Notes: generated by a model not told the origin, from the letters alone. A DNA stretch of 64,000 nucleotides from Halobacterium sp. KA-4 (GCF_021028995.1 NZ_JAJJZG010000007.1:62001-126000), one strand, 5' to 3'; positions 7,088 to 53,012 are shown, counted from the first letter of the stretch. Numbers and translations are program-made.

Positions 7088-7633
7088 ATGACCGAGCCGC
7101 GCGTACCGGGGGCCGAGGACGACGACGCGTGGGTGGACCTCCCGTGCGGGGAGCAGGCTCACGTGAAGGACTTCGACTTGGGGATGCGGGAGTACGACTG
7201 TTCCTGCGGGGAGACGCACGCAGTCGTGATGGACATGCATCCGCCGTCGCGGTTCGTGCCGGAGGACATCGTCGCGGTGTTGAAGGAGGCGGTGACGCCC
7301 GCGCCCGAAGACGAGTTCGAGGAGTTCGGGACGCCGCACTTGATGGGCGCGGTGATGGAGCAGCTCCCCGAGGACATCGTCGCCGTGGATGAGAGCGAGA
7401 ACGGGAGCGTCGGCTACGCGCTGCTGTGGGTGACGGACCTCGAAGCGCGTGAACTCCACGAGGTCGTCGTCGAACTGGTCGTGGAACTGATGGACCACGC
7501 GGTGAGCCACGCCGACGACAGCGGCACCGAGAGCGAGTTCGAACAACAGATGCAGGAGTTCGACGTCAGCGAGTTCGTGGACTCCTACCGCGCGCAGCGG
7601 GACTTCGACGACGAATACGATACTCCGGCATAG
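7088..7633 (+). CDS. Conserved haloarchaeal protein (DUF5815-like); integration target with element-supplied C-terminus
   Basis: A 181-aa acidic cytoplasmic protein starting at ATG 7088. It has a DCSCGETH segment (possible metal-binding cysteines, near residue 40), then MDMHPPSRFVPEDIV and LHEVVVELVVELMDHAVSHADD. I recall the family as conserved across haloarchaea (DUF5815-like) with unknown role. The important point is the 3' end: an integrated element recombined into the codons for FDDEYD. The last codons now come from the element (GAT ACT CCG GCA TAG) and encode DTPA-stop, the same residues as the original end now stranded at 12278-12304. The full-length protein is therefore preserved. Confidence 0.8.
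   Translation: MTEPRVPGAEDDDAWVDLPCGEQAHVKDFDLGMREYDCSCGETHAVVMDMHPPSRFVPEDIVAVLKEAVTPAPEDEFEEFGTPHLMGAVMEQLPEDIVAVDESENGSVGYALLWVTDLEARELHEVVVELVVELMDHAVSHADDSGTESEFEQQMQEFDVSEFVDSYRAQRDFDDEYDTPA
7606..7620. repeat. attL core of the integrated element
   Basis: CGACGACGAATACGA, identical to 12277-12291. It falls inside the coding sequence of the gene at 7088 (codons for FDDEYD). Left of it is host sequence; right of it is the element's replacement of the last codons. Confidence 0.88.
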
Positions 7634-8115
7634 TACTCCAGTCATGGATCAGGGGCTTAAGCGTCTGAAGCCCCCATTTTCCCCGAGTGGTTGTTCCACT
7701 GTCAGGAAATCGCGACTGAAGTATACTGTGCCGTGTCGTATTTCGTCAGGTGCCTCATCCAATATTACATCATCCACGACTGTAAAAGTGCCGATATCTT
7801 GATTAAGAAGGGCTAATGTGGCATAATTGTATTTTGGGATCTCCCTCTCGGTTTTATTTTACAGTCGTTTTCCTTATGTATATATAGGGTGTACACGGGG
7901 TGCGCAATTATCGCTCACGCTGCAACCCAATTTGGTCCCGAGTATTCCCCTACGATTCCCCATTTAAGTAGGGTGCGAACATTACGAAGTTAAATGTAGA
8001 CGGGTGGCTGTGATGCCGGTCGTCTCATGATCGTTGAAGAACTGTTCAGATTGGTGTCTGTTATATGGCCGGCGAGGTGTGAGAGCACCGGGTAGTCGGC
8101 TTCTGTCGCAGAATT
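7634..8115. other. Non-coding left end of the integrated element
   Basis: About 480 nt without a convincing gene, much more A/T-rich than the flanking chromosome. Near the left end, 7732-7747 read in reverse complement is GACGAAATACGACACG, an imperfect inverted copy of the att right arm, possibly an accessory integrase site. TATCTTGAT occurs at 7795-7803. A TATA-rich stretch (TATATATAG) lies near 7878. Around 8070-8103 there is a nested dyad (GCCG...GGTG loop CACC...CGGC) just before the three-gene cassette. Its function is unknown; it could hold the origin and promoters of the element. Confidence 0.5.
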
Positions 8116-8280
8116 ATGTCAACTAAAACGAAATCAGATGAAACGAACGTACACGTATGGCGGTCGGACCTCGATGACCTCGATCAAGTGGCCATCGAAC
8201 TATTCGGTACCAAAAACGTCCCGTACCGAGCAACCATCCAGCGATTAATTGCAGAGTATGAGGGAGAAAACCATGAGTGA
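8116..8280 (+). CDS. Small hypothetical protein of the integrated element (cassette gene 1)
   Basis: A 54-aa protein (starting MSTKTKSDETNVHVWRSDL). The C-terminal half (FGTKNVPYRATIQRLIAEYEG) looks like a helix-turn-helix or ribbon-helix-helix-sized module, but no family is recognised. Its TGA (8278-8280) overlaps the ATG of the next gene (8273), so the two are translationally coupled. Codon use is less GC-biased than in the chromosome, as in the rest of the element. Confidence 0.55.
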   Translation: MSTKTKSDETNVHVWRSDLDDLDQVAIELFGTKNVPYRATIQRLIAEYEGENHE

Positions 8281-8476
8281 GAAAATCGTGCTGGAAGTGA
8301 GTGACGAGTTAGCCGATGCAGTTGAGCGAGAATACGCGGAACGACAGGCGCATGCCATCGAATCGATGGAGGCACACGGTTGGGACATGCAGGCTGAAAA
8401 GGTCAAGAATACTGATTTGGCTGAAAACACTGCTGAAAAGGCCTTATTCGTGCTTAAGCAGGAGGTGACTAACTGA
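8273..8476 (+). CDS. Small hypothetical protein of the integrated element (cassette gene 2)
   Basis: A 67-aa charged, helical protein. The start at ATG 8273 is preferred over the upstream ATG at 8249 because it overlaps the previous stop in the compact ATGAGTGA arrangement. It begins MSEKIVLEVSDELADAVE and continues with alternating acidic and basic helix (REYAERQAHAIESMEAHGW). The beta-strand-then-helix opening (KIVLEVSDELADAVEREY) is reminiscent of short antitoxin or ribbon-helix-helix proteins; this is only suggestive. It overlaps the next gene by one base (TGATG). Confidence 0.6.
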   Translation: MSEKIVLEVSDELADAVEREYAERQAHAIESMEAHGWDMQAEKVKNTDLAENTAEKALFVLKQEVTN

Positions 8477-8724
8477 TGGGCCTGATTGGAGACTCAGACG
8501 CGAAGACTGCTGTGAACCTTTCTCTACCTCAGAGAGTGGTGGAACGACTGCACTACGAAGCCAAACACCACAAGCAAAAACGCGCGTTCATGAGCGGGGA
8601 TGTACCGGTAGCGCCGTCCGTACAGTACGAAGGCGAAGAACTGACAGCCGACGAAGTCGATCTTGTGGAGCAGTTCATCGGCTGGAAGATGTACGACTCA
8701 GTACCCCGGAAATACTTCGACTGA
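8476..8724 (+). CDS. Small hypothetical protein of the integrated element (cassette gene 3)
   Basis: An 82-aa protein starting at the ATG that overlaps the preceding stop (TGATG). It contains AVNLSLPQRVVERLHYEAKHHKQ, a strand-helix pattern resembling ribbon-helix-helix or small DNA-binding proteins, and a C-terminal half with DEVDLVEQFIGWKMYDSVPRKYF. No family is recognised. Being the third member of a tightly overlapping set, it probably acts with the two proteins encoded just upstream. Confidence 0.6.
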   Translation: MGLIGDSDAKTAVNLSLPQRVVERLHYEAKHHKQKRAFMSGDVPVAPSVQYEGEELTADEVDLVEQFIGWKMYDSVPRKYFD

Positions 8725-9132
8725 TTAGGCCGGGGGGTGATTCTGTCAGGTCGGATGGCTTCCCAAAAATCACCAGAAATCGCAGCCCAGCGAACAACCT
8801 CATGCAGCAAGGCGAACCGCTAATTAACCAGTAAATGAAGGGTAACGGACCTCTCTCGATGTTTGAGTTTAGTCTACCAGTTTTAGCCCGTTAGCCGGCT
8901 GAAGTCCGTTCTGTCTCTCTCGGTTTCGTCCGTGTTGGCCCCAATTGTCGCAATCGGTTACGAACAGATGTGTCTAATTAGATTCATTAACGAGCGGATT
9001 AGCCCGGTGTGTCGTCGCACACCGAACTACCCTGAAGAATCGACAGCAGGTGGTAACCATGTACACATACAGTATCCATACTGATAAGTTTTTTGGTCGA
9101 CCTAAAACATGCCCTGTGTCTGGTGATTACAG
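8725..9132. other. Non-coding region before rep, candidate replication origin
   Basis: About 400 nt without a credible gene. It contains an exact 7-bp hairpin with a 6-nt loop at 9005-9024 (CGGTGTG / CACACCG). A TATA-like CTAAAAC sits at about 9102-9108, 25-31 nt before the rep ATG at 9133, so rep is probably transcribed leaderless. Rolling-circle elements often place the double-strand origin just before rep, which makes this hairpin a candidate. Confidence 0.45.
9005..9024. repeat. Hairpin upstream of rep
   Basis: CGGTGTG (9005-9011), loop TCGTCG, CACACCG (9018-9024): a perfect 7-bp stem. It lies about 110 nt before the rep start in an otherwise low-structure region. It could be a terminator for the upstream cassette or part of a rolling-circle origin. 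Confidence 0.6.
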
Positions 9133-9993
9133 ATGAACGCCCGCGACATGGAGGCCGACGTCGTCGAAAGCAACCGGGGCAAAATGGGCGGGTTCGGACC
9201 GGACCGGTCACTGTCGGTAGCCGACACTGCCGACGTCCCACTTGCCCCGGCAACGAACTCTCTCCCTCAATTCGTATTAGGCCCCGACGGGTCTGTTCCG
9301 ACGTGGTCACAGGCTTCTGAGAGGTTCGTGAAGCGTTTACAGGCAGATAGCCCACATAACCCTCGATTCGGCAGTGAATGGTCTGTGCGAACTCATGCGC
9401 GCCTCCTACGGGCCGATGAATGCATGAGAGAATGGTGCCAGACAACCGTACTCCTGACGTTTACTGGCACACCGTATCTGACCGACGACGTCGACCGACC
9501 GATGCCACCGACGTCCTTCATGATGGCACTGGCAAAATCCCAGTCGGCTCGGAGAAACGCGCTACGGGAAGTGCTCGACAACACCGGGGGTCGATGGGTG
9601 ACCATGAAGGTAATCGGATCACATCAATCCGGATACCCACACGAGCACGTTCTGATTGGGATTGAGGCCCCCGTGTCGTCCGAAGATTTCGAGCCTGTTA
9701 TTCGTGCACACAGATCCGAGAGTCCCATCGCCGGTGACGGAGCGCACGGTGTCGGGGCAATCAGAATCGAATCCAACCCCAATCAAGCCGAAATGACCGG
9801 CGGGGTTCGCTACGTGGCACCAGATGCGCCCGGAGTTCGAGACGTACTGGAGGCCGAAGAATCCGGTCGAACTCCACAAGGCATCGTGAACGAATCAACA
9901 CACAGGCAACGAACGGCGTCAGTGCTGGAAGCAACCGGTACGCAAGCCGTGCGCATCGAGTCGTCAGACAACGTGCATGCCGACTGGCACTAA
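9133..9993 (+). CDS. Rolling-circle (HUH-type) replication initiator-like protein
   Basis: A 286-aa protein with the motif order of haloarchaeal Rep endonucleases. Motif 1 is the hydrophobic TTVLLTFTGTPY (about residues 104-115). Motif 2 is GYPHEHVLIGI (His170 and His172), matching the PHxHVxL metal-binding motif of pC194-type Reps. The candidate nicking tyrosine is Tyr227 in GGVRYVAPDAPG. Such proteins nick the double-strand origin and start rolling-circle replication of small plasmids and pleolipoviruses. The protein is shorter than many haloarchaeal Reps, mostly at the C-terminus, so it may be reduced. There is no helicase domain. The alternative, an unrelated element protein, is less likely given three motifs in order. 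Confidence 0.65.
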   Translation: MNARDMEADVVESNRGKMGGFGPDRSLSVADTADVPLAPATNSLPQFVLGPDGSVPTWSQASERFVKRLQADSPHNPRFGSEWSVRTHARLLRADECMREWCQTTVLLTFTGTPYLTDDVDRPMPPTSFMMALAKSQSARRNALREVLDNTGGRWVTMKVIGSHQSGYPHEHVLIGIEAPVSSEDFEPVIRAHRSESPIAGDGAHGVGAIRIESNPNQAEMTGGVRYVAPDAPGVRDVLEAEESGRTPQGIVNESTHRQRTASVLEATGTQAVRIESSDNVHADWH

Positions 9994-10195
9994 CTTAAAT
10001 GCCAGTTACAGAATAGGCGTACCAGTCCTTCTACACCCAATTCTTCGGTATCTCACTCAGGGCCTGAGACAAATCGAACAATAAGGCCAAGAGTACCAGT
10101 CTGTTCTACGATGGCCGAGGCCGAACCGACTTCGGTCTTTGGGGTGACTGCATTCTGATCCAAGTACGCAACTGACACAGAACCATGCCCGACAT

Positions 10196-10203
10196 GTTTA
10201 AAC
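10196..10203 (+). promoter_or_regulatory. TATA-type promoter for the zinc-ribbon membrane gene
   Basis: The palindromic GTTTAAAC is centred about 27 nt before the ATG at 10226, the spacing expected for a leaderless haloarchaeal transcript. Confidence 0.5.
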
Positions 10204-10225
10204 AGTATCATGATATGTGTGACGT

Positions 10226-10843
10226 ATGGTAGAGTGTAGCGCTTGCGGAGCAGAACTCCAATCAGAGGCAGAGTTCTGCCACAACTGTGGCAACAGTGTC
10301 GAACATTCCACAGATAGGGGAGCAGAAACGACTGGTCAAGAAGAACAGTCAAATTCCAAGGCATCCCTTTCCGAAGTTGAAAAGGAAGATGTGTCTGACG
10401 ACAGTGCCTTTTTAGATCTACTGTCGAACCTATCAGTCAATCAGGTTTTTATCTATAGCGGGATTATCGTCGTTGGAGTCGGCTCCCTACTACCGTGGGT
10501 CGGGTTTAGTGCATTAGGATTCTCCACCACGTTTATCGGAGTTGATACAATTGATGGGATATCGACAGTTGGGATGGCTATCGCAGTTTTCATCATCTCA
10601 AAAACAGCGTGGAGGAAAGAATTCATCGCAGTATCATTACTCCTTTCAGCAGCCATAGTAGTAGTCGGGTTGGCATACATTAACGATCCACTCGTTGTGC
10701 TCGATAAGAGCAGGTTTACCACCGGACAATTGCGGACATTTAGAGCCTCAGCGAACCTAAAATCAGGAACCTATTTGACTATCTTTGGTGGCGTCTCGAT
10801 GGTTGTTGGCACCTTTAGGGAACTTGCAAAGACTGTGGTGTAG
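10226..10843 (+). CDS. Zinc-ribbon membrane protein of the integrated element
   Basis: A 205-aa protein with an N-terminal zinc ribbon (Cys4, Cys7, Cys18, Cys21: CSACG and CHNCG), a polar acidic linker to about residue 70, and four probable membrane helices (about 73-95, 111-126, 133-152, 181-199). Double-zinc-ribbon-plus-membrane proteins of this kind are common in archaeal genomes and elements, with unassigned roles. The base composition is A/T-rich like the rest of the element (many ATT, GTA and TCA codons). It is transcribed from its own probable promoter. Confidence 0.7.
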   Translation: MVECSACGAELQSEAEFCHNCGNSVEHSTDRGAETTGQEEQSNSKASLSEVEKEDVSDDSAFLDLLSNLSVNQVFIYSGIIVVGVGSLLPWVGFSALGFSTTFIGVDTIDGISTVGMAIAVFIISKTAWRKEFIAVSLLLSAAIVVVGLAYINDPLVVLDKSRFTTGQLRTFRASANLKSGTYLTIFGGVSMVVGTFRELAKTVV

Positions 10844-11003
10844 TTCAAATCCCAGATGGATTCGTCAACTGTAGGGATGTTCCGATCATCATACCATCAC
10901 ACCGGGAACATATCCGAATTACGTGGCAATCCCGGCTAAAAGGGTGGTAGTTAAATAAAATTCAACCAGCGTATATCCGGTGATAGACCAAGAGGTTTGA
11001 CCG

Positions 11004-12143
11004 CTACAGGTCGAGATTCTCTCGTCTGATTTGTGCCTTCGTTTCCTCGTCTTGGCGATCGTAATGGCGCGACATCACCTCCTCGGAGAGGTCACAGCGA
11101 CCGCTGATTGTCTCCGTATGGATGTCATGGTCAAGGTGCCGGTGCGTGATAGAACCACGGCGTACCGGATGGCACGACACCGAATCCGGACATTCATTCG
11201 CATTCCGTTTTCCCCCCGTAGCAGGGCATTCCTCAGGATCACGGTCATCCGGGCATTCGTTTTCGTACACGCACGGTCGAGTCAGCCCCCGGAAATCACG
11301 TAGTATCGTATTGTAGGTGACTCGGCCAGCCCGCGTCGTAAGCAACGGTTTACGGCCATCCTCGACACTTTCCGGTTGGAGACGTCGACGATCGATGTAG
11401 TCTCGGATGACCGCAGCCACTTCACGGGAAATGTTCACTCGACGTTCACTCTCCTCCTGATTCTTCAACGGGGTATCCGTGTCCGGGCGATGCACCAATT
11501 CAATCTGGGGGGCATCGTCGTCAAGGTAACAGTCCGAGATGTCGATCGATCGCATCGCTCCCGCGCGCATGGCGGTTTCCCAGCAAATTGCGAACTCTAC
11601 ATGCTGGCGAGATGCGTACTGGAACTGCTCACAGTAGTCGAGGATTGCCTCCGCCGTGCCCGTGTCTATTTTCTCGTCGCGAGTTCCATCCGGGGCGGAG
11701 GCGTCCGGTGCTTTTTCCGCAAGGCCATCTCGGACATATTCAACTTGCTCGCAGTGCTGGATGAATGACCGCAGCACCGAGAGATACTGGCCCACGGTGG
11801 TTGTTGCGATGTCATCCGACATGAGCGAGCGTTTGAAGGCCATCAGATCTGCACCAGTCACTTCGGACATCACTTCGATGCCCTGCTCGTCACAGAAGTC
11901 CGTCCACAGATTCACGATCGTCCGGTATCCTCGGACCGTTTCGCTGGACTGCTCATTTGTAGCCGTGGCTATCCAATCATCGGTTGCTTCGTCGGGCGTT
12001 TGCTCAATCATGTTTGTACTGAGTGAGGCACCCGACGACCGGCCACTCGGATTTGAACCTGAGGTGACCGCGTTTGCGTGCCGAAACATCTTGTCGTGTT
12101 CTGTTTTGCTGGTCACACGAGACACAAGGGGCGAATACCCCAT
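11004..12143 (-). CDS. Tyrosine recombinase / phage-type integrase
   Basis: A 379-aa XerC/D-like integrase that would catalyse excision and insertion of the element. The N-terminal SAM-like core-binding domain (ATDDWIATATNEQSSETVRGY ... LRSFIQHCEQ) precedes the catalytic domain with Arg in ETAMRAGAMRSIDI, the box II HPVRRGSITHRHL (His-x-x-Arg), and the nucleophile Tyr in SRHYDRQDEET. A cysteine-rich insert (CVYENECPDDRDPEECP) before box II resembles that seen in many haloarchaeal integrases. The ATG at 12143 is supported by a TATA-like ATTATTA about 25 nt upstream (12165-12171). A later ATG at 12011 would remove a poorly conserved-looking N-terminus. The gene lies beside attR and reads inward. 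Confidence 0.9.
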   Translation of the reverse strand: MGYSPLVSRVTSKTEHDKMFRHANAVTSGSNPSGRSSGASLSTNMIEQTPDEATDDWIATATNEQSSETVRGYRTIVNLWTDFCDEQGIEVMSEVTGADLMAFKRSLMSDDIATTTVGQYLSVLRSFIQHCEQVEYVRDGLAEKAPDASAPDGTRDEKIDTGTAEAILDYCEQFQYASRQHVEFAICWETAMRAGAMRSIDISDCYLDDDAPQIELVHRPDTDTPLKNQEESERRVNISREVAAVIRDYIDRRRLQPESVEDGRKPLLTTRAGRVTYNTILRDFRGLTRPCVYENECPDDRDPEECPATGGKRNANECPDSVSCHPVRRGSITHRHLDHDIHTETISGRCDLSEEVMSRHYDRQDEETKAQIRRENLDL

Positions 12144-12164
12144 AAACTTTGTCAGAATTGGGAC

Positions 12165-12171
12165 TAATAAT
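12165..12171 (-). promoter_or_regulatory. TATA box of the integrase gene
   Basis: On the minus strand this reads ATTATTA, centred about 25 nt before the integrase ATG (12143). It lies within about 110 nt of the attR core, so occupancy of the att region could influence integrase expression. Confidence 0.45.
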
Positions 12172-12276
12172 GCGGACCGAAGGACCTAAACCCAGAGTAT
12201 AGGGCCTTAATAGCGCTTTTACAACCTCTTTGTCGCCCGCCATTATCAGTCACTTTTCTGATATTGTGTCGTGTTC

Positions 12277-12304
12277 CGACGACGAATACGACACACCCGC
12301 GTAA
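12277..12304 (+). pseudogene. attR with the displaced original 3' end of the gene at 7088
   Basis: The second 15-bp core copy (12277-12291) is followed by codons GAC GAC GAA TAC GAC ACA CCC GCG TAA, that is DDEYDTPA and a stop. This is the same peptide as the current end of the intact gene at 7607-7633 but with different third bases after the core. It is the host gene's original end, separated from its body by the element. Confidence 0.88.
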
Positions 12305-12496: not shown

Positions 12497-15400
12497 ATGA
12501 GCGAGCACGACGACCGCACGGTACTGCTCATCGGGAGCGGCCCCATCCAGATCGGACAAGCGGCTGAGTTCGACTACTCCGGCGCGCAGGCATGCCGGGC
12601 ACTGCAGGAGGAGGGCGTGCGAGTCGTGCTCGTCAACTCCAACCCTGCGACCATCATGACGGACCCCGAGATGGCCGACGCGGTGTACATCGAGCCCATC
12701 ACGACCGACGCCATCGCGGAGGTCATCGCCCAGGAGAACCCCGACGGCGTCATCGCCGGGCTCGGCGGTCAGACCGGGCTGAACGTCACCGCGGAACTCG
12801 CCGAAGAGGGCGTCCTCGACGAGTACGACGTCGACATCATGGGAACGCCGCTGGACACCATCTACGCGACCGAGGACCGCGACCTGTTCCGTCAGCGTAT
12901 GGAGAACCTCGGCGAGCCCGTCCCAGCGTCGACGACCATCACGCTCGACGAGGGCGAGTCCGTCGAGGACTTCGACGAGGACGCGCTGCGCGAGCGCGTC
13001 GAGGCCGCCGCCGACGAGGTCGGCGGGCTGCCGGTCATCGCGCGCACGACGTACACGCTCGGCGGGAGCGGCTCCGGCGTCGTCGACGACATGGACGAAC
13101 TCGTCGCTCGCGTGCGGAAGGGCCTGCGCCTCTCGCGGAACGACGAGGTGCTCGTCACCGAGTCCATCGAGGGCTGGGTCGAACTGGAGTACGAAGTGAT
13201 GCGGGACGCCGACGACTCCTGCATCATCGTCTGCAACATGGAGAACATCGACCCGATGGGCATCCACACGGGCGAGTCCACCGTCGTCACGCCCAGCCAG
13301 GTCATCCCCGACGACGGCCACCAGGCGATGCGCGACGTCGCGCTCGAAGTCATCCGCGACTTGGGTATTCAGGGCGGCTGTAACATCCAGTTCGCGTGGC
13401 GCGACGACGGCACGCCCGGCGGCGAGTACCGCGTCGTCGAAGTGAACCCCCGCGTCTCGCGCTCGTCGGCGCTGGCGTCGAAGGCGACCGGCTACCCCAT
13501 CGCGCGGGTCACTGCGAAGGTCGCGCTCGGCAAGCGTCTCCACGAAATCGAGAACGAGATTACCGGCGAGACCACCGCCGCCTTCGAGCCCGCAATCGAC
13601 TACATCGTCACGAAGGTGCCGCGGTGGCCCAAGGACAAATTCCCGGACGTGGACTTCGAACTCGGCACGGCGATGAAGTCCACGGGGGAGGCGATGGCCA
13701 TCGGCCGGACGTTCGAGGAGAGCCTCCTGAAGGCGCTGCGCTCCTCGGAGTACGACCCCGACGTCGACTGGGGCGCAGTCAGCGACGAAGAACTCGAAGC
13801 CGACTACCTCGAGACGCCGACGCCCGACCGCCCGTACGCGGTGTTCGAGGCGTTCGACCGCGGCTACACCGTCGACGAGGTCAACGACTTCACGAATTTC
13901 CGCGAGTGGTACTTGGAGCGCTTCCAGAACGTCGCGGAGGCGGCGGAAGCCGCCAGCGAGGGCGACTTCACGGCCGCCGCCACCGCCGGCTTCACGAACC
14001 ACGAAATCTCGGCGCTGGCGGGCGGGGAGTTCGACGACGCGAACGCGTCGTGGCTGCCCGGCGCGACCGACGACGCGGAGGACGAGCTCGCGCCCGACGG
14101 CGCCGGCGCGAGCGTCACCGACATCGAGGAGGCCGTCCCCGGCCGCTCGTACAAGCAGGTGGACACGTGCGCCGGCGAGTTCGCCGCGCAGACGCCGTAC
14201 TACTACTCGTCGCGGCGCCCCGAGTGGTTCAACGGCCCGCTCAAGGGCGACGCGGCCGCGGGCGAACTCCGTGTGAACACGGACGTCGACTCCGTGGTCG
14301 TCGTCGGCGGCGGCCCCATCCGCATCGGGCAGGGCGTGGAGTTCGACTACTGTTCGGTGCACGCGGTGCGCGCGCTCCGCGAGGCTGGCATCGAGGCGCA
14401 CGTCGTGAACAACAACCCCGAGACCGTCTCCACTGACTACGACACCAGCGACGGCCTGTTCTTCGAGCCGATTACGGCCGAGGAGGTCGCCGACGTGGTC
14501 GAGGCGACCGACGCGGACGGCGTGATGGTGCAGTTCGGCGGCCAGACCTCCGTGAACGTCGCGGACCCGCTGGAGGCCGAGTTGGAGCGCCGCGACGGCG
14601 TGGACGCCGAGATTCTCGGGACGAGCGTGGACGCGATGGACCTCGCGGAGGACCGCGACCGGTTCAACGTGCTGATGGACGAACTCGGCATCAGCCAGCC
14701 CGACGGCGGCTCCGCGACCAGCGAGGAGGAGGCGCTCGACCTCGCCCACGACATCGGCTACCCCGTGCTCGTCCGCCCGAGCTACGTGCTCGGCGGGCGT
14801 GCGATGGACGTCGTCCACAGCGACGAGGAACTCAAACACTACATGGAGGAGGCCGTCCGGGTCAGCCCGGACAAACCCATCCTCATCGACGAGTTCCTCG
14901 CGGACGCGGTCGAACTCGACGTCGACGCCGTCGCGGACGGCGAGGACGTCCTCATCGGCGGCGTGATGGAGCACGTCGAGACCGCGGGCGTCCACTCCGG
15001 CGACTCGGCGTGTACGATTCCGCCGCGCTCGCTCGACGAGGAGACGCTCGGTCGCGTGCGCGAGGTTACCGAGGATATCGCCACTGCGCTGGATACGGTC
15101 GGCCTGCTGAACGTCCAGCTCGCCGTGCAGGACGGCGAGGTGTACGTGCTCGAAGCGAACCCGCGCTCTTCGCGCACGGTCCCGTTCGTCTCGAAGGCGA
15201 CCGGCGTCCCGATTGCGAAACTCGCGGCGAAGGTGATGGCCGACTTCTCGCTCTCGGACCTCGACGTCAGCGAGGGCGTCCCGGAGCAGTACAGCGTCAA
15301 AGAGGTCGTGTTGCCGTTCGACCGGCTGCCGGGTTCGGACCCGCGTCTCGGGCCGGAGATGAAGTCCACGGGCGAAGTGATGGGAACCGCCGCGAAGCCG

Positions 15401-15730
15401 GGGCTGGCGTACTGGAAGGCCCAGCGCGCCGCGGGCAACGACCCTGAAATCGGCGGCACTGCCGTCGTCGACCTCCCGGTCAGTGGCTTCGAGGAGTACT
15501 TCGACGTGCAGACGTTCGACGACCTCTCGGAGGCGATTCGCCGCGGCGACGTCGACTTCGTAATCTCCGACGAGCGCGACGCCCTCGAAACCGCCGTCGA
15601 GGAGGAAGTGCCGTACCTCTCGACGGTCGAGAGCGCGGAGGCGATGCTCGAAGGCGTCGCCCACCACGACGACGACCTCGACGTGCTGCCGGTCGGCGAC
15701 CGCCCGATTCGCGACGAGCAGTGGGGCTGA
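12497..15730 (+). CDS. carB: Carbamoyl-phosphate synthase large subunit
   Basis: A 1077-aa enzyme that makes carbamoyl phosphate from ammonia (delivered by CarA), bicarbonate and two ATP, for pyrimidine and arginine synthesis. Two homologous ATP-grasp halves are visible, each starting with a PreATP motif: LLIGSGPIQIGQAAEFDYSG at the N-terminus and VVVGGGPIRIGQGVEFDYC near residue 600. Both halves have the EVNPRVSRSSAL / EANPRSSRTVPF metal-binding segment. An acidic linker of about 60 residues joins the halves, and the C-terminal allosteric (MGS-like) part is short. The ATG at 12497 was chosen since the family motif starts there and a TATA box is correctly spaced; the longer frame would run into attR. 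Confidence 0.97.
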   Translation: MSEHDDRTVLLIGSGPIQIGQAAEFDYSGAQACRALQEEGVRVVLVNSNPATIMTDPEMADAVYIEPITTDAIAEVIAQENPDGVIAGLGGQTGLNVTAELAEEGVLDEYDVDIMGTPLDTIYATEDRDLFRQRMENLGEPVPASTTITLDEGESVEDFDEDALRERVEAAADEVGGLPVIARTTYTLGGSGSGVVDDMDELVARVRKGLRLSRNDEVLVTESIEGWVELEYEVMRDADDSCIIVCNMENIDPMGIHTGESTVVTPSQVIPDDGHQAMRDVALEVIRDLGIQGGCNIQFAWRDDGTPGGEYRVVEVNPRVSRSSALASKATGYPIARVTAKVALGKRLHEIENEITGETTAAFEPAIDYIVTKVPRWPKDKFPDVDFELGTAMKSTGEAMAIGRTFEESLLKALRSSEYDPDVDWGAVSDEELEADYLETPTPDRPYAVFEAFDRGYTVDEVNDFTNFREWYLERFQNVAEAAEAASEGDFTAAATAGFTNHEISALAGGEFDDANASWLPGATDDAEDELAPDGAGASVTDIEEAVPGRSYKQVDTCAGEFAAQTPYYYSSRRPEWFNGPLKGDAAAGELRVNTDVDSVVVVGGGPIRIGQGVEFDYCSVHAVRALREAGIEAHVVNNNPETVSTDYDTSDGLFFEPITAEEVADVVEATDADGVMVQFGGQTSVNVADPLEAELERRDGVDAEILGTSVDAMDLAEDRDRFNVLMDELGISQPDGGSATSEEEALDLAHDIGYPVLVRPSYVLGGRAMDVVHSDEELKHYMEEAVRVSPDKPILIDEFLADAVELDVDAVADGEDVLIGGVMEHVETAGVHSGDSACTIPPRSLDEETLGRVREVTEDIATALDTVGLLNVQLAVQDGEVYVLEANPRSSRTVPFVSKATGVPIAKLAAKVMADFSLSDLDVSEGVPEQYSVKEVVLPFDRLPGSDPRLGPEMKSTGEVMGTAAKPGLAYWKAQRAAGNDPEIGGTAVVDLPVSGFEEYFDVQTFDDLSEAIRRGDVDFVISDERDALETAVEEEVPYLSTVESAEAMLEGVAHHDDDLDVLPVGDRPIRDEQWG

Positions 15731-25670: not shown

Positions 25671-26584
25671 TCGTACTCGATGGTCGCGGGTGGTTTGTGG
25701 GTGACGTCGTAGACGACGCGCGAGACGTCGTCGATGGTCCCGGCGATGCGGGACTGGAGGCGCTGGAGGGTCTCCCACTCCAGTTCCTGGGCGCGCGCGG
25801 TCATCCCGTCGCGGGACTCCACGGAGCGCACGGCGACGACGTAGCCGTGCACGCGGTTGTCGCCTTTCACGCCCGTCGCCTTCCCGAGGACGGCGGCGAA
25901 CGCCTGCCACGGGTCGTACTCCTCGAGTTCCTCCTCGACGACCGCGGTCGCCTCGCGGCAGACCTCGACCTTCTCGGGGGTGACTTCGCCGAGCACGCGC
26001 ACCGCGAGCCCGGGCCCGGGGAACGGCATGCGCTCGCTGATGATTTCCTCGAGGTCGAGGTAGCGGGCGACCTCCCGGACTTCGTCCTTGTAGAGGTCGC
26101 GCATCGGCTCGACGATGCCCTCGAAGCCGACGCGCTCGGGGAGCCCGCCGACATTGTGGTGGCTCTTGATGGTACCCTCGCTCTCGATGCGGTCCGGGTA
26201 GATGGTGCCCTGCACGAGGTAGTCGGCGTCGACGTCCTCGGCGACCGTCTCGAACTCCCGGATGAACTGCTCGCCGATGACGTGGCGCTTCTCCTCGGGG
26301 TCCGTGATTCCCGCCAGTTCGTCGAAGAAGCGGTCCTGCGCCTCCACGACGCGGAGACTGTCCATGTAGTCGAAGACCTCCCGAATCTCCTCTGTCTCGC
26401 CCTTCCGCATCAGGCCGGTGTCGACGTAGACGGGGACGAGCTGGTCGCCGACCGCCTCGTACGCCAGCGCGGCGGCGGTAGAGGAGTCGACGCCGCCGGA
26501 GAGCGCGATGATGGCGGTGCTGTCGCCGAGTTTCTCCTGAATCTCGGCTTTGGCATCCGCGACGAACTCCTCGACGTCGACCAT
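25667..26584 (-). CDS. guaAb: GMP synthase, ATP pyrophosphatase subunit B
   Basis: A 305-aa subunit that adenylates and aminates XMP. In archaea the glutamine amidotransferase is a separate protein, not present in this window. The PP-loop [17 protein letters not shown] is at about residues 25-41, followed by [28 protein letters not shown], the [11 protein letters not shown] motif, [15 protein letters not shown] and the C-terminal dimerisation segment ending [13 protein letters not shown]. It is preceded by pyrG with a TGATG overlap, so both CTP and GMP synthesis share one operon. Confidence 0.95.
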
Positions 26585-28224
26585 CAGTTCACCACCTCCG
26601 CTTCCGTCTCGGTGGCTTCGAGGACTGCGTCCAGCAGCCCGACGAACGGCGGGCTCGCGCGGGTCGGCCGGGACCGGAACTCGGGGTGGAACTGCGTCCC
26701 GAAGAAGAACGGGTGGTCGTCGTACTCCAGAATCTCCATGCGGTTGCCGGCCTCCCCGGAGAACGTCAACCCGTTGTCCGTGAGGTCGTCGATGTAGTCG
26801 GGGTTGACCTCGTAGCGGTGGCGGTGGCGCTCCGTACACGAGGTGTCGCCGTACAGTTCGTGGGCGAGCGTCCCGGGCTCGATTTGGGTGTCGTGGGCGC
26901 CCAGGCGCATCGTCCCGCCGAGGTCTTCGAGGTCGTACTGCTCGGGTAGCAGGTCGATGACCGGGTGCGGCGTCTCCTCGTTGATTTCCGAGGAGTGGGC
27001 GTCCGCCATCCCGAGGACGTTGCGCGCGTATTCGACGACCGCGAGCTGGAAGCCCAGACAGAGCCCGAGGAAGGGGACGTCGTGTTCGCGGGCGTACTGA
27101 ATCGCGCGAATCTTCCCTTCCGTGCCACGGGAGCCGAAGCCGCCGGGGACGACGACGCCGTCGGCCTCGCGGAGACGCTCCTCGTGGTCGTCGTTCATCT
27201 TCTCGGAGTCCACCCAGAGGACGTTCACGTCGACGCCGCGTTCGAGGCCGGCGTGCTTGAGCGCCTCGTGGATGCTCATGTACGCGTCCTCGAGGGCGTA
27301 CTTCCCGACGAGCGCGATGTCGACTTCGCCCGTGCGCTCGCGGGTAACGAGGTCACGCCACTCCGTCGAACGCTCGGCCTTCGGGAGGGCGTCGTCGGCG
27401 ATGTCGAACTCCTCCATCACGTACTCGTCGAGGCCCTCCTCCTCGACGACGAGGGGGACGTGGTAGACGTCTTCGACGTCCGGATTCGAGAAGACGGCGT
27501 CGGTCGGGACGTCGCAGAACAGCGCGATTTTCTCCTTGACGTCGGGGTCGAGTTCGTCCTCACAGCGCCCCACGAGGACGTCCGGCTGGAGACCAATCGA
27601 CCGGAGTTCCTTCACGGAGTGCTGGGTGGGCTTGGTCTTCTGCTCGCCCGTCTGGGAGTACGGCACGAGCGTGACGTGCGTGAACAGGATGTCCTCGTCG
27701 TCCTCCTCGTGGCTGAACTGGCGCAGCGCCTCGAGGAACGGCATCCCCTCGATGTCGCCCACGGTGCCACCGACTTCGACGATGCAGACGTCGGAGCCCT
27801 CGGCGGCCTCGCGGACGCGCCGCTTGATGTCGTCGGTGACGTGCGGGATAATCTGGACGGTCTTCCCGAGGTAGTCGCCGGCGCGCTCGCGCTCGATGAC
27901 GTGCTGGTAGACCTTCCCCGTGGTGACGTTGTGGTCGGAGGTCATGTCGACGTCGAGGAACCGCTCGTAGTTCCCCAGGTCGAGGTCGACCTCCCCGCCG
28001 TCCTTGAGCACGTACACTTCGCCGTGCTGGTAGGGGTTCATCGTCCCCGCGTCCACGTTGAGGTATGGGTCGATTTTGACGGCCGTGACGTCGAATCCGG
28101 CGTTCGAGAGGAGGCGGCCCAGACTGGCGGCGGTAATGCCTTTCCCCAGTCCGGACATCACCCCGCCAGTAACGAACACGAACTTGCTTCCCAGTGTCGG
28201 GTCGTACCCGGTCTCCGTCGGCAT
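26584..28224 (-). CDS. pyrG: CTP synthase
   Basis: A 546-aa enzyme converting UTP to CTP with glutamine. The synthetase half begins [20 protein letters not shown] (P-loop) with [19 protein letters not shown], and the glutamine amidotransferase half has the nucleophile Cys in [15 protein letters not shown] and the His/Glu pair in [10 protein letters not shown]. The length equals the family norm. The ATG at 28224 is preferred because the conserved start follows 10 residues later. It is co-transcribed with guaAb. Confidence 0.97.
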
Positions 28225-50405: not shown

Positions 50406-51569
50406 ATGGACGTACCGGGCGTGAAGCGAGTGACTGGACGGGTCGCGGTCGCGTTGACCCTCGCAGTCGCCGCGCTGTCGGTCGGCGTCGGCATCCTCGG
50501 CATCGTCAATCCGACCGCGAACTTCGGGCCGTTCGCCCAGCACATTCCGCCCGCAATCAGCCAGACCGCCGGGTTCACCGGCTCACTCACCGGCTTCTTG
50601 ATGGTGATGAGCGCGTTCGGCCTGCGCCGCGGCCTCCGGGTGGCGTGGTACTCGACGATGGTGTTGCTCCCGGTCACCGCTGGCCAGGGGCTCGTGCAGG
50701 CGACGCCGTACTCGGTGCCGCTGGTCGTGTTGTCGATTGTCGCGTTCCCCGTGCTCGCCGTCGCGCGCAGCCGCTTCGACGAGCCGATTTCGCTGTCCAC
50801 CAGCCAGTTGGCAGCGGGCGGCGCGCTCGCCGGCGTGCAGGCGTACGGCACCATCGGCACGTACGCGCTCCGCGGCGAGCGCGGGTTCACGGGCGTGAAC
50901 ACGATGCTGGACGCGTTCTACTACACGCTCGTCACCTCCAGCACCGTGGGCTACGGCGACCTCACCCCGACCACGCAGGAGGCGCGGCTGTTCTCGCTGT
51001 CCGTGCTCGTGCTCGGCACCGCGAGTTTCGCCGTCGCGCTCGGCGCGCTTCTCGGCCCCGCCCTCGAAGCCCGGTTCGCGAGCGCCCTCGGACGCATGAC
51101 ACAGAGCGACCTAGAGTCCCTCGACGGCCACGTGGTCGTCGCGGGCTACGGCGACCTGACGGAACCGATTCTGACCGAACTCGCCGCCAGCGGCCGCCAG
51201 TTCCTCGTGGTGGCCCGCGGCGGCACCGACACCTCGGAACTCCGCGACCGCGACATCGATGTCCTCGCCGGCGACCCCGCCGACGAGAAAGTCCTCGAAC
51301 GGGCGGGCGTCGAGCGCGCCCGAGCGGTCGTCGCGGCGACCAACGACGACGGCGAGGACGCGCTCGCGATTCTCACCGTCACCGAGGCGTTCCCCGACGT
51401 TCGCGTGGTCGCCGCCGCCACCGAGCAGGAGAACGAGCCGAAACTCCGCCGCGCGGGCGCGAACACCGTTATCAGCCCGATGGTCATCGGCGGTCGGCTG
51501 CTGGCCCGCTCCGCGCTCGGCGACGACCAGGCCGAGCAGGACGCCGCCGACGTCGTCGACGAAGTGTAG
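50406..51569 (+). CDS. Kch-type potassium channel with TrkA-N domain
   Basis: A 387-aa protein. Four or more N-terminal helices (VAVALTLAVAALSVGVGILGIV, SLTGFLMVMSAFGLRRGL, VPLVVLSIVAFPVLAV ...) precede an ion-channel domain with the canonical filter SSTVGYGDLTP (near residue 185) and the inner helix LSVLVLGTASFAVALGALL, then an RCK domain (HVVVAGYGDLTEPILTELAASG, GxGxxG-like). There is no TrkA-C, unlike the neighbouring proteins, so the divergently encoded TrkA-C membrane proteins might complement it; that is inference. Confidence 0.85.
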   Translation: MDVPGVKRVTGRVAVALTLAVAALSVGVGILGIVNPTANFGPFAQHIPPAISQTAGFTGSLTGFLMVMSAFGLRRGLRVAWYSTMVLLPVTAGQGLVQATPYSVPLVVLSIVAFPVLAVARSRFDEPISLSTSQLAAGGALAGVQAYGTIGTYALRGERGFTGVNTMLDAFYYTLVTSSTVGYGDLTPTTQEARLFSLSVLVLGTASFAVALGALLGPALEARFASALGRMTQSDLESLDGHVVVAGYGDLTEPILTELAASGRQFLVVARGGTDTSELRDRDIDVLAGDPADEKVLERAGVERARAVVAATNDDGEDALAILTVTEAFPDVRVVAAATEQENEPKLRRAGANTVISPMVIGGRLLARSALGDDQAEQDAADVVDEV

Positions 51570-53012
51570 TCAGGCGGTGTGGACGACCGCGATGTCCGTC
51601 TCGAGGTCGCGGACGCGCTCGTAGGTCGGCCGCGAGAAGAACTTCGAGGCGGCCGAGCGGTCGGTGCTCGCGCCGAGGAAGACGAGGTCGTAGTGGGCGT
51701 CGTTGCGCTCGACGAACTCCTCGATTGACGACCGCGAGACGCGCGTCTCACAGCGCGTGCCCACGGTCTCCGTGAGGTTCGCGAGCATCGACTCGGTGCG
51801 GCGGCGCTCGCGCTCGGTGTCGATGCACGAACAGACGCTGATAGAGCCGTTCCGGCCGGCGAGGCGCTCGGCGTAGTCCAGCATCGCGTGCGCGACGTCG
51901 GAGGCGCTGCGCACGGGAACCATGATGCGCTTCCAGCGTGTGCGCTCGCCGGTCGACTGGAGCGCGACGACGTCCACGCCGCTCCCGAACAGCGTCCGCA
52001 GGAACGGCGTCAGTGCGCCGTCCTCGTCGCACTCGAAGGGCGTGACGACGAGGTCGCAGTTCGCCTCGTCGGCGGTCGAGAGCACTGTCCCCGCGGGGTT
52101 GCCGTTCGCGACCGCGACCGCCACGTCGCAGGGGACGCCGACGCTCGTCTCGATGCGCGCGGCCTGCTGTTCGAGTTCGCGCGCGGCAGCGTCGGCGGCC
52201 CGCTCCTCGCCGGTGGACTCGGCGTCCTCGACGTAGTCCGCGCCCTCGCCGCCGATGCACTCGCGCTCGGCGGCCGCGATTTCCTCGTCGTCGACGACGT
52301 CCAGCAGCACGACCTTCCCGGCGTCGTGGGCGGCCGCGATGCGCGCACCCAGCATCGCGGTCTGCTCGGCAGTCTCCCCGCGCATCGGCACGACGACATG
52401 GTCGTCGGCCTCCGTCGTCCGGTAGAGGTAGCGGGCGCGCTCCTCGTAGAACTCGCGGCGCCACAGCACGAACACGACCGCGACCAGCGACGCCGACAAC
52501 GCGACGGCGACGACGTACGCGAACTGCGCGGTGCCCGTGACGAGCACGAGCAACGCCGTCGAGAACGCAGTCGGGAGTTCGAGGTCCAGTGCCCACGTCA
52601 CAGCGGCCGTGAGGAACACGCCGAGCGCGGCCGCGCCCGCGTCGAGCCCGACCGCAGAGGTCGGGACGCCGTACGCGAGCGCGGTGAGTTCGACGGCGCC
52701 CCACCCGCAGAGCGCGCCGACAGTCAGCCCGCCGACAAACGTCCGTGGGTTCGAGTAGCGGCCCTCGGGCTCGGCGAACAGCGTATACGTCCCCGACGCA
52801 AGCGGCGGGAACAGGAGGAACGAGACCACGTCGACCGTCTCCGAGAGCAGCGTCACGAGCCCGACGAGTAGCGGCACGAACAGCAGCACGGAGACGTGGA
52901 GGAGGTTGCTCGTCGTCTCCAGCCACTTCCGGAACGAGCGGAGTTCGCGGCGCTCGATGCGCGCGGCGCGCTGCCGGGCCGCCGCGAGCCGCCGCCGCAA
53001 CTCCGAGAACAT
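51570..53012 (-). CDS. HPP-type membrane protein fused to two universal-stress domains
   Basis: A 480-aa fusion. The N-terminal ~190 residues carry five to six helices (VSVLLFVPLLVGLVTLL, VVSFLLFPPLASGTYTLFAEP - the HPP signature region, AALGVFLTAAVTWAL, TALLVLVTGTAQFAYVVAVAL, SLVAVVFVLW), followed by two Usp-like domains (HVVVPMRGETAEQTAMLGARIA and IMVPVRSASDVAHAMLDYAERL). HPP proteins include nitrite transporters; the role here is unknown. The start is ATG 53012; GTG 53018 is an alternative. The stop directly abuts that of the Kch-type gene. Confidence 0.78.
   Translation of the reverse strand: MFSELRRRLAAARQRAARIERRELRSFRKWLETTSNLLHVSVLLFVPLLVGLVTLLSETVDVVSFLLFPPLASGTYTLFAEPEGRYSNPRTFVGGLTVGALCGWGAVELTALAYGVPTSAVGLDAGAAALGVFLTAAVTWALDLELPTAFSTALLVLVTGTAQFAYVVAVALSASLVAVVFVLWRREFYEERARYLYRTTEADDHVVVPMRGETAEQTAMLGARIAAAHDAGKVVLLDVVDDEEIAAAERECIGGEGADYVEDAESTGEERAADAAARELEQQAARIETSVGVPCDVAVAVANGNPAGTVLSTADEANCDLVVTPFECDEDGALTPFLRTLFGSGVDVVALQSTGERTRWKRIMVPVRSASDVAHAMLDYAERLAGRNGSISVCSCIDTERERRRTESMLANLTETVGTRCETRVSRSSIEEFVERNDAHYDLVFLGASTDRSAASKFFSRPTYERVRDLETDIAVVHTA

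Follow-up and report, generated by a model that had tools for sequence, protein, structure and literature searches.

In Escherichia coli, phage 21 and the element e14 integrate at the icd gene, the 3' end of which is restored by phage codons, many of the changes being synonymous. The use of such targets is also documented in archaea, since 14 of 68 thaumarchaeal elements are integrated at the 3' ends of protein-coding genes (PMC6563490) and Halorubrum virus BJ1 is reported at a gene for HMG-CoA reductase (PMC8371274), an integration inferred from a variant sequence in the original paper (PMC2194725). In the SNJ2-type integrase family, delimited by an identity of 30% or more over 60% of the protein (PMC8371274), the att site of SNJ2 itself is reported as 13 bp (PMC8371274, PMC13107129), and tRNA genes are the reported sites of pleolipoproviruses that have related integrases (PMC7911831). 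Whether the att sites located in protein genes have dyad symmetry is a question posed in a review of archaeal recombinases (PMC8371274).

The locus described here belongs to a 64-kb stretch of DNA analysed as a whole (hereafter the window). At the 3' end of a DUF5815 gene adjacent to carB, a plasmid-like element of ~4.67 kb is bounded by a pair of 15-bp repeats. We consider it highly probable that this is an integrated element whose SNJ2-type integrase joined its attP to an attB constituted by the last codons of the DUF5815 gene.

The repeat, the shared gene end and the element

The DUF5815 gene (positions 7088-7633, plus strand) encodes a protein of 181 aa (Pfam PF19132, E 2.9e-77) and contains close to its end the attL copy of the 15-bp direct repeat CGACGACGAATACGA (7606-7620), the attR copy of which is found at 12277-12291 in the same orientation. 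The left copy runs into the codons GAT ACT CCG GCA TAG (7619-7633, plus strand) and the right copy into GAC ACA CCC GCG TAA (12290-12304, plus strand), both of which give D-T-P-A-stop, and the in-register identity extends to DDEYDTPA-stop. The final 15 nt contain five differences, every one at a third codon position, an outcome expected with a chance of 1/3003 for five differences placed at random. When both strands of the window were scanned, DDEYDTPA-stop was the sole pair of stop-terminated eight-residue matches, and no such pair occurred in 15 Markov-simulated windows. The GC content falls from 65.6% in the left flank to 52.0% in the element and rises to 67.7% in the right flank; no tRNA gene was found in the window. 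A 15-bp repeat is by itself unremarkable, and a second one, also spanning the integrase gene, is present in the 22 kb examined. Taken together, the coding match, the compositional step and the empty site of a relative presented below place the arrangement far beyond chance. Sequence, GC content and Pfam matches thus agree with the original prediction of a repeat bounding an AT-richer segment with an integrase and a Rep, and the synonymous encoding of the same ending by both copies, also part of it, is confirmed by the sequence.

The restored stop codon is directly followed by a hairpin (7652-7680, plus strand; GGGGCTT...AAGCCCC, then CATTTT) whose likeness to a terminator is suggestive only, with a fold no stronger than that of shuffled sequences (z -1.3). 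Three small plus-strand ORFs come next, two of them, of 54 aa (8116-8280) and 67 aa (8273-8476), with no family match and the third, of 82 aa (8476-8724), with a sub-threshold HicB-like match. The DUF1424 Rep (9133-9993, plus strand; Pfam PF07232, E 4.5e-11; PHROG replication protein, E 1.2e-4) is, judging from these matches, a probable replication initiator, and its plasmid relatives sit on haloarchaeal plasmids of 1.7-2.5 kb. It is followed by a zinc-ribbon protein of 205 aa (10226-10843, plus strand; Zn_ribbon_3, E 1.1e-6), in which hydrophobic segments can be read off the sequence, and by the tyrosine integrase of 379 aa (11004-12143, minus strand), the gene start of which faces attR. Comparison of the element ORFs to Pfam and PHROGs gave no match to virion genes (VP3-like, spike, ATPase), which leaves the element outside the definition of a pleolipovirus provirus, and no close relative of its integrase or Rep was found in viral contigs. 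Distant SNJ2-type integrases adjoining relatives of this Rep are found elsewhere, at 7388-8536 and 9123-9896 of another contig of the window's own genome (L174, G000:C4), where a serine-recombinase-like gene lies alongside the pair, and at 7909-8679 and 8905-10023 of locus L176 (G232).

The two gene ends and the locus in relatives

The body of the DUF5815 gene is host-derived, with 96% identity to its counterpart in the congeneric genome G005, and its tail is foreign. Compared with G005 and G009, the left tail differs at 5/5 third positions against 17/172 in the gene body (p=1.9e-5), and the right tail differs from the gene end of these two genomes at 1/13 post-core positions (p=0.4). The codons of the left tail are about 500 times (e^6.2; log-odds 6.2) likelier under the usage of the element than under that of the host, and those of the right tail are neutral between the two (log-odds 0.5). 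The divergence of the left tail and its element-like codons therefore indicate that the left copy came with the element and that the right copy represents the host end, moved from its place, which bears out the prediction of an element carrying replacement codons for the gene end of its host. This pattern is the one predicted by integration with restoration: att repeats bound the element, one of them within the 3' end of a gene, and the eight final residues of the target ORF and its stop are unchanged.

The locus was compared with that of 12 other genomes belonging to the GTDB genus of the window genome (G000). The DUF5815 gene is present in 12/12 of them and the 4.67-kb segment behind it is absent from 12/12. 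In the window carB (12497-15730, plus strand) is recognised as the right host flank by its identity to relatives; in the five nearest of these it is 94-98% identical and starts ~0.2-0.8 kb behind the DUF5815 gene. A clean empty site is found in G010, with which the joined flanks of the window align through the junction into carB over 724 bp at 88% identity, the junction falling exactly at the repeat. The empty junction expected next to carB was thus recovered in one genome, and neither of the two outcomes announced as contrary to the prediction occurred, as the relatives have the right-hand, GC-rich version of the 3' end and not the left one, and the 4.7-kb segment is conserved at the locus in 0/12. 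The search for other elements at the same gene end, proposed along with it, brought no further case: with a degenerate tail pattern applied to 392 genomes of the order, two distant tail copies were found only in the window genome, and viral contigs yielded none. These two copies are also the only ones in the assembly of the window genome, in which neither an excised circle nor an attP junction was detected. Outside the genus, the DUF5815 genes seen in further genera and families (L045-L049 and L060, 55-67% identity) retain a DEYDTPA-like ending, which falls outside the Pfam domain; an end resembling attB is thus widespread.

The simple picture of an empty site is limited to one close relative because the gene tail is duplicated in four sister species. 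A second tail copy occurs 105-109 bp downstream in G002, G005, G009 and G011 (L010, L009, L008 and L011, respectively), where the last 30 bp, encoding DEYDTPA-stop, are repeated past the DUF5815 stop codon, and the two copies are separated by a hairpin-rich spacer of ~75 bp. Both tail copies of G002 carry the species-specific CCGGCGTAGCGGGGT, suggesting that gene conversion may have taken place between them. In a tree of DUF5815 and carB DNA the window is sister to G005, followed by G009, G002, G010 and G011. Being nested among carriers of the duplication, it probably had an ancestor with the duplication, and the single-copy G010 must have lost it unless the other genomes acquired it independently. 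For the window, the most economical course is that the duplication collapsed, either prior to the integration or following it. Simple tandem duplication does not account for these tails, since the spacer occurs once, only between them; the possibility that the sister spacer, taken as 96 bp, is a dispersed mini-element was also considered and rejected, its strong matches being confined to the DUF5815 locus.

The integrase and the recombination core

The integrase of the element is 37.1% identical to that of SNJ2 over 93% and 40.3% identical to that of HRPV9 over 83%, above the identity and coverage that delimit the SNJ2-type family, and its named relatives are those of SNJ2, HHPV4 and HRPV9 (37-40%). 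It contains the SAM-like domain PF02899 (26.1 bits) and the Phage_integrase domain PF00589 (27.3 bits), both above the gathering threshold. The enzyme is intact, with catalytic residues R193, K227, H325, R328 and Y361 that are invariant across 12 aligned members of the family. The attB of this family usually lies in a tRNA gene, a trait that does not strictly define it; here attB lies within the DUF5815 gene.

One hundred further SNJ2-type integrase loci were submitted to an automatic att scan. It recovered 14 tRNA-embedded att pairs, with the inner att at the start of the integrase gene in 8 and at its end in 6. No second protein-gene target was found in a relaxed scan of these 100 loci, an absence that carries little weight since most of them yielded no att; restoration of a protein end was counted only if attached to an ORF of at least 80 codons, and the remaining matches were tRNA att repeats or short frames of at most 73 codons. 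In the six tRNA-targeting members of the int-start kind with the distance given, the inner att is 14-136 bp from the start of the integrase match. In the window this distance is about 130 bp (133 bp) and the target gene is at the far end of the element, a geometry that matches that of the tRNA-targeting sub-group with DUF5815 in place of the tRNA gene. In a tree of 96 integrases the int-start and int-end arrangements separate among the labelled members, and the side of the gene on which att is located appears to track phylogeny. The window integrase is placed with L029 and with L067/L020 (one locus), the latter bearing a tRNA-Trp att repeat and grouping with it at an SH-aLRT of 95, a placement that is unsure because of the long branch (0.9) of the window integrase.

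Other features of the comparison set concern the distribution of the family. Two different SNJ2-type integrases face each other a few kb apart in the window genome (G000:C54:21685-22668(+) and 26299-27306(-)), and the identical pairing occurs in G001 (G001:C2:46995-47978(+) and 51193-52254(-)). The members of these pairs come from two separate clades and possibly represent either a two-integrase element or adjacent elements. A contig labelled Rhizobium sp. S152 (L132, NZ_JAUDRZ010000006.1) also encodes a haloarchaeal SNJ2-type integrase, a probable contamination of that assembly.

At attR, a 12-7-12 inverted repeat is formed by the left arm TGTGTCGTGTTC on the element side (12265-12276), the centre CGACGAC and the right arm GAATACGACACA (12284-12295), with 11/12 arm positions paired, a score equalled by 2/200 shuffles. 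The reconstructed attP has 9/12 arm positions paired around an unchanged centre, and the dyad symmetry of the joined attB is weak at that centre. The core of tyrosine recombinases is typically made of two arms and a 7-bp overlap, a layout that attR fits. The 7-bp centre is contained in the shared 15-bp repeat, and its left copy (7606-7612, plus strand) is the predicted overlap; strand exchange would thus take place within the 15-bp identity, and the element would supply GAATACGATACTCCGGCATAG. This attR bears on the question raised in the review of archaeal recombinases, as it does show dyad symmetry (PMC8371274).

Explanations of the locus and comparison with known systems

According to the reading that we favour, the SNJ2-type tyrosine integrase would recombine the attP of the element with an attB formed by the final host codons of DUF5815, the crossover probably lying inside CGACGAC. 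From this motif to the stop (GAATACGATACTCCGGCATAG) the gene would then be derived from the element and re-encode E-Y-D-T-P-A, and the original host codons would be shifted to the carB side; the excised element would replicate through its DUF1424 Rep, and an element-free strain of the species should have the gene end GAATACGACACACCCGCGTAA. The synonymous differences fit a selection acting on the peptide, since the copy brought by the element is the real ending of the gene as long as the element is integrated. The tail duplication of the sister species counts against this scheme in that it needs an extra loss step, the short duplication most likely having been kept in the sisters and lost by the window lineage before or after the integration.

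This duplication invites another reading, which the tree led us to consider, in which both tails descend from an older host arrangement (tail, hairpin, tail) and the element simply inserted into the spacer, supplying neither. The second DEYDTPA-stop copy of G002, G005, G009 and G011, among which the window genome is nested, is in its favour, and an element-free conspecific should then have GATACTCCGGCATAG followed by the hairpin spacer. We rejected it on the foreign nature of the left tail, which departs from the first tail of the sisters at all five third positions against 10% in the gene body and has element-like codons; moreover, the hairpin spacer is left on neither side, divergence begins right after the 15-bp core, and the attR dyad is centred in that core. 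We regard this origin as improbable. Signs of gene conversion between the sister tails show that recombination occurs at the locus, and the insertion could have resulted from homologous recombination between a plasmid-borne fragment of the host tail and the gene end, without action of the integrase here. The shared identity of merely 15 bp is short for such a process, the att copy is 133 bp away from an intact integrase gene in the arrangement usual for its family, and the dyad agrees with a recombinase core, all of which makes this route very improbable. Least credible, to the point of being negligible, is the idea of a repeat arisen by chance on the border of a genomic island whose true boundaries are elsewhere: such repeats do arise in GC-rich DNA over tens of kb, as the other one found here illustrates, but eight residues and a stop matching in register are unique in the window and absent from the simulations, and this coding match rules out chance together with the empty site of G010, barring an error in the assembly of the latter.

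The initial proposal, an integration at the 3' end of a protein-coding gene with restoration of its C-terminus, is thus supported by the empty site and by the foreign left tail. The tail duplication also hints at an earlier use of the integration site, and an attractive but unproven view is that it was left behind by a former integration there. A broader scenario, which we put forward tentatively and judge doubtful, would make the DUF5815 3' end a recurrent site in the genus, with the duplications as scars of a nearly deleted element that brought its own gene end and with a sub-group of SNJ2-type integrases having switched from tRNA genes to this target.

The locus provides a clear haloarchaeal case of an element that protects its host by encoding a protein end with synonymous codons. 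It indicates that the targets of SNJ2-type integrases extend beyond tRNA genes and bears on changes of att specificity as well as on the design of integration tools for halophiles. Phage 21 and e14 differ from it as bacterial lambdoid elements with a longer homology. The claim that a protein gene is an unusual target compared to tRNA genes holds for the att sites found for SNJ2-type integrases, but such targets were already known in archaea from thaumarchaeal elements and BJ1. Among the former, NitEve-E2 is alike in being archaeal, in having a 13-bp att within the 3' end of a protein-coding gene to which the element gives an end with a different stop codon, and in an integration verified by an empty site, and it is unlike in belonging to another phylum and in replacing 8 non-homologous nt, whereas the codons are homologous and the peptide identical here (PMC6563490). 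The SNJ2 family shares with the present element its integrase homology, the SAM-like and Phage_integrase domains and a short att (PMC8371274, PMC13107129), but the att sites of its members were found here in tRNA genes, and the pleolipovirus-like relatives have att on the side of the integrase end and not of its start. BJ1 is likewise a haloarchaeal element in a protein-coding gene, although a tailed virus, and the passages devoted to it in the review and in its original paper were not found to describe a C-terminal restoration (PMC8371274; PMC2194725). The present locus adds to these systems an SNJ2-type integrase that has a protein gene as its target and an element that restores the same peptide through synonymous codons.
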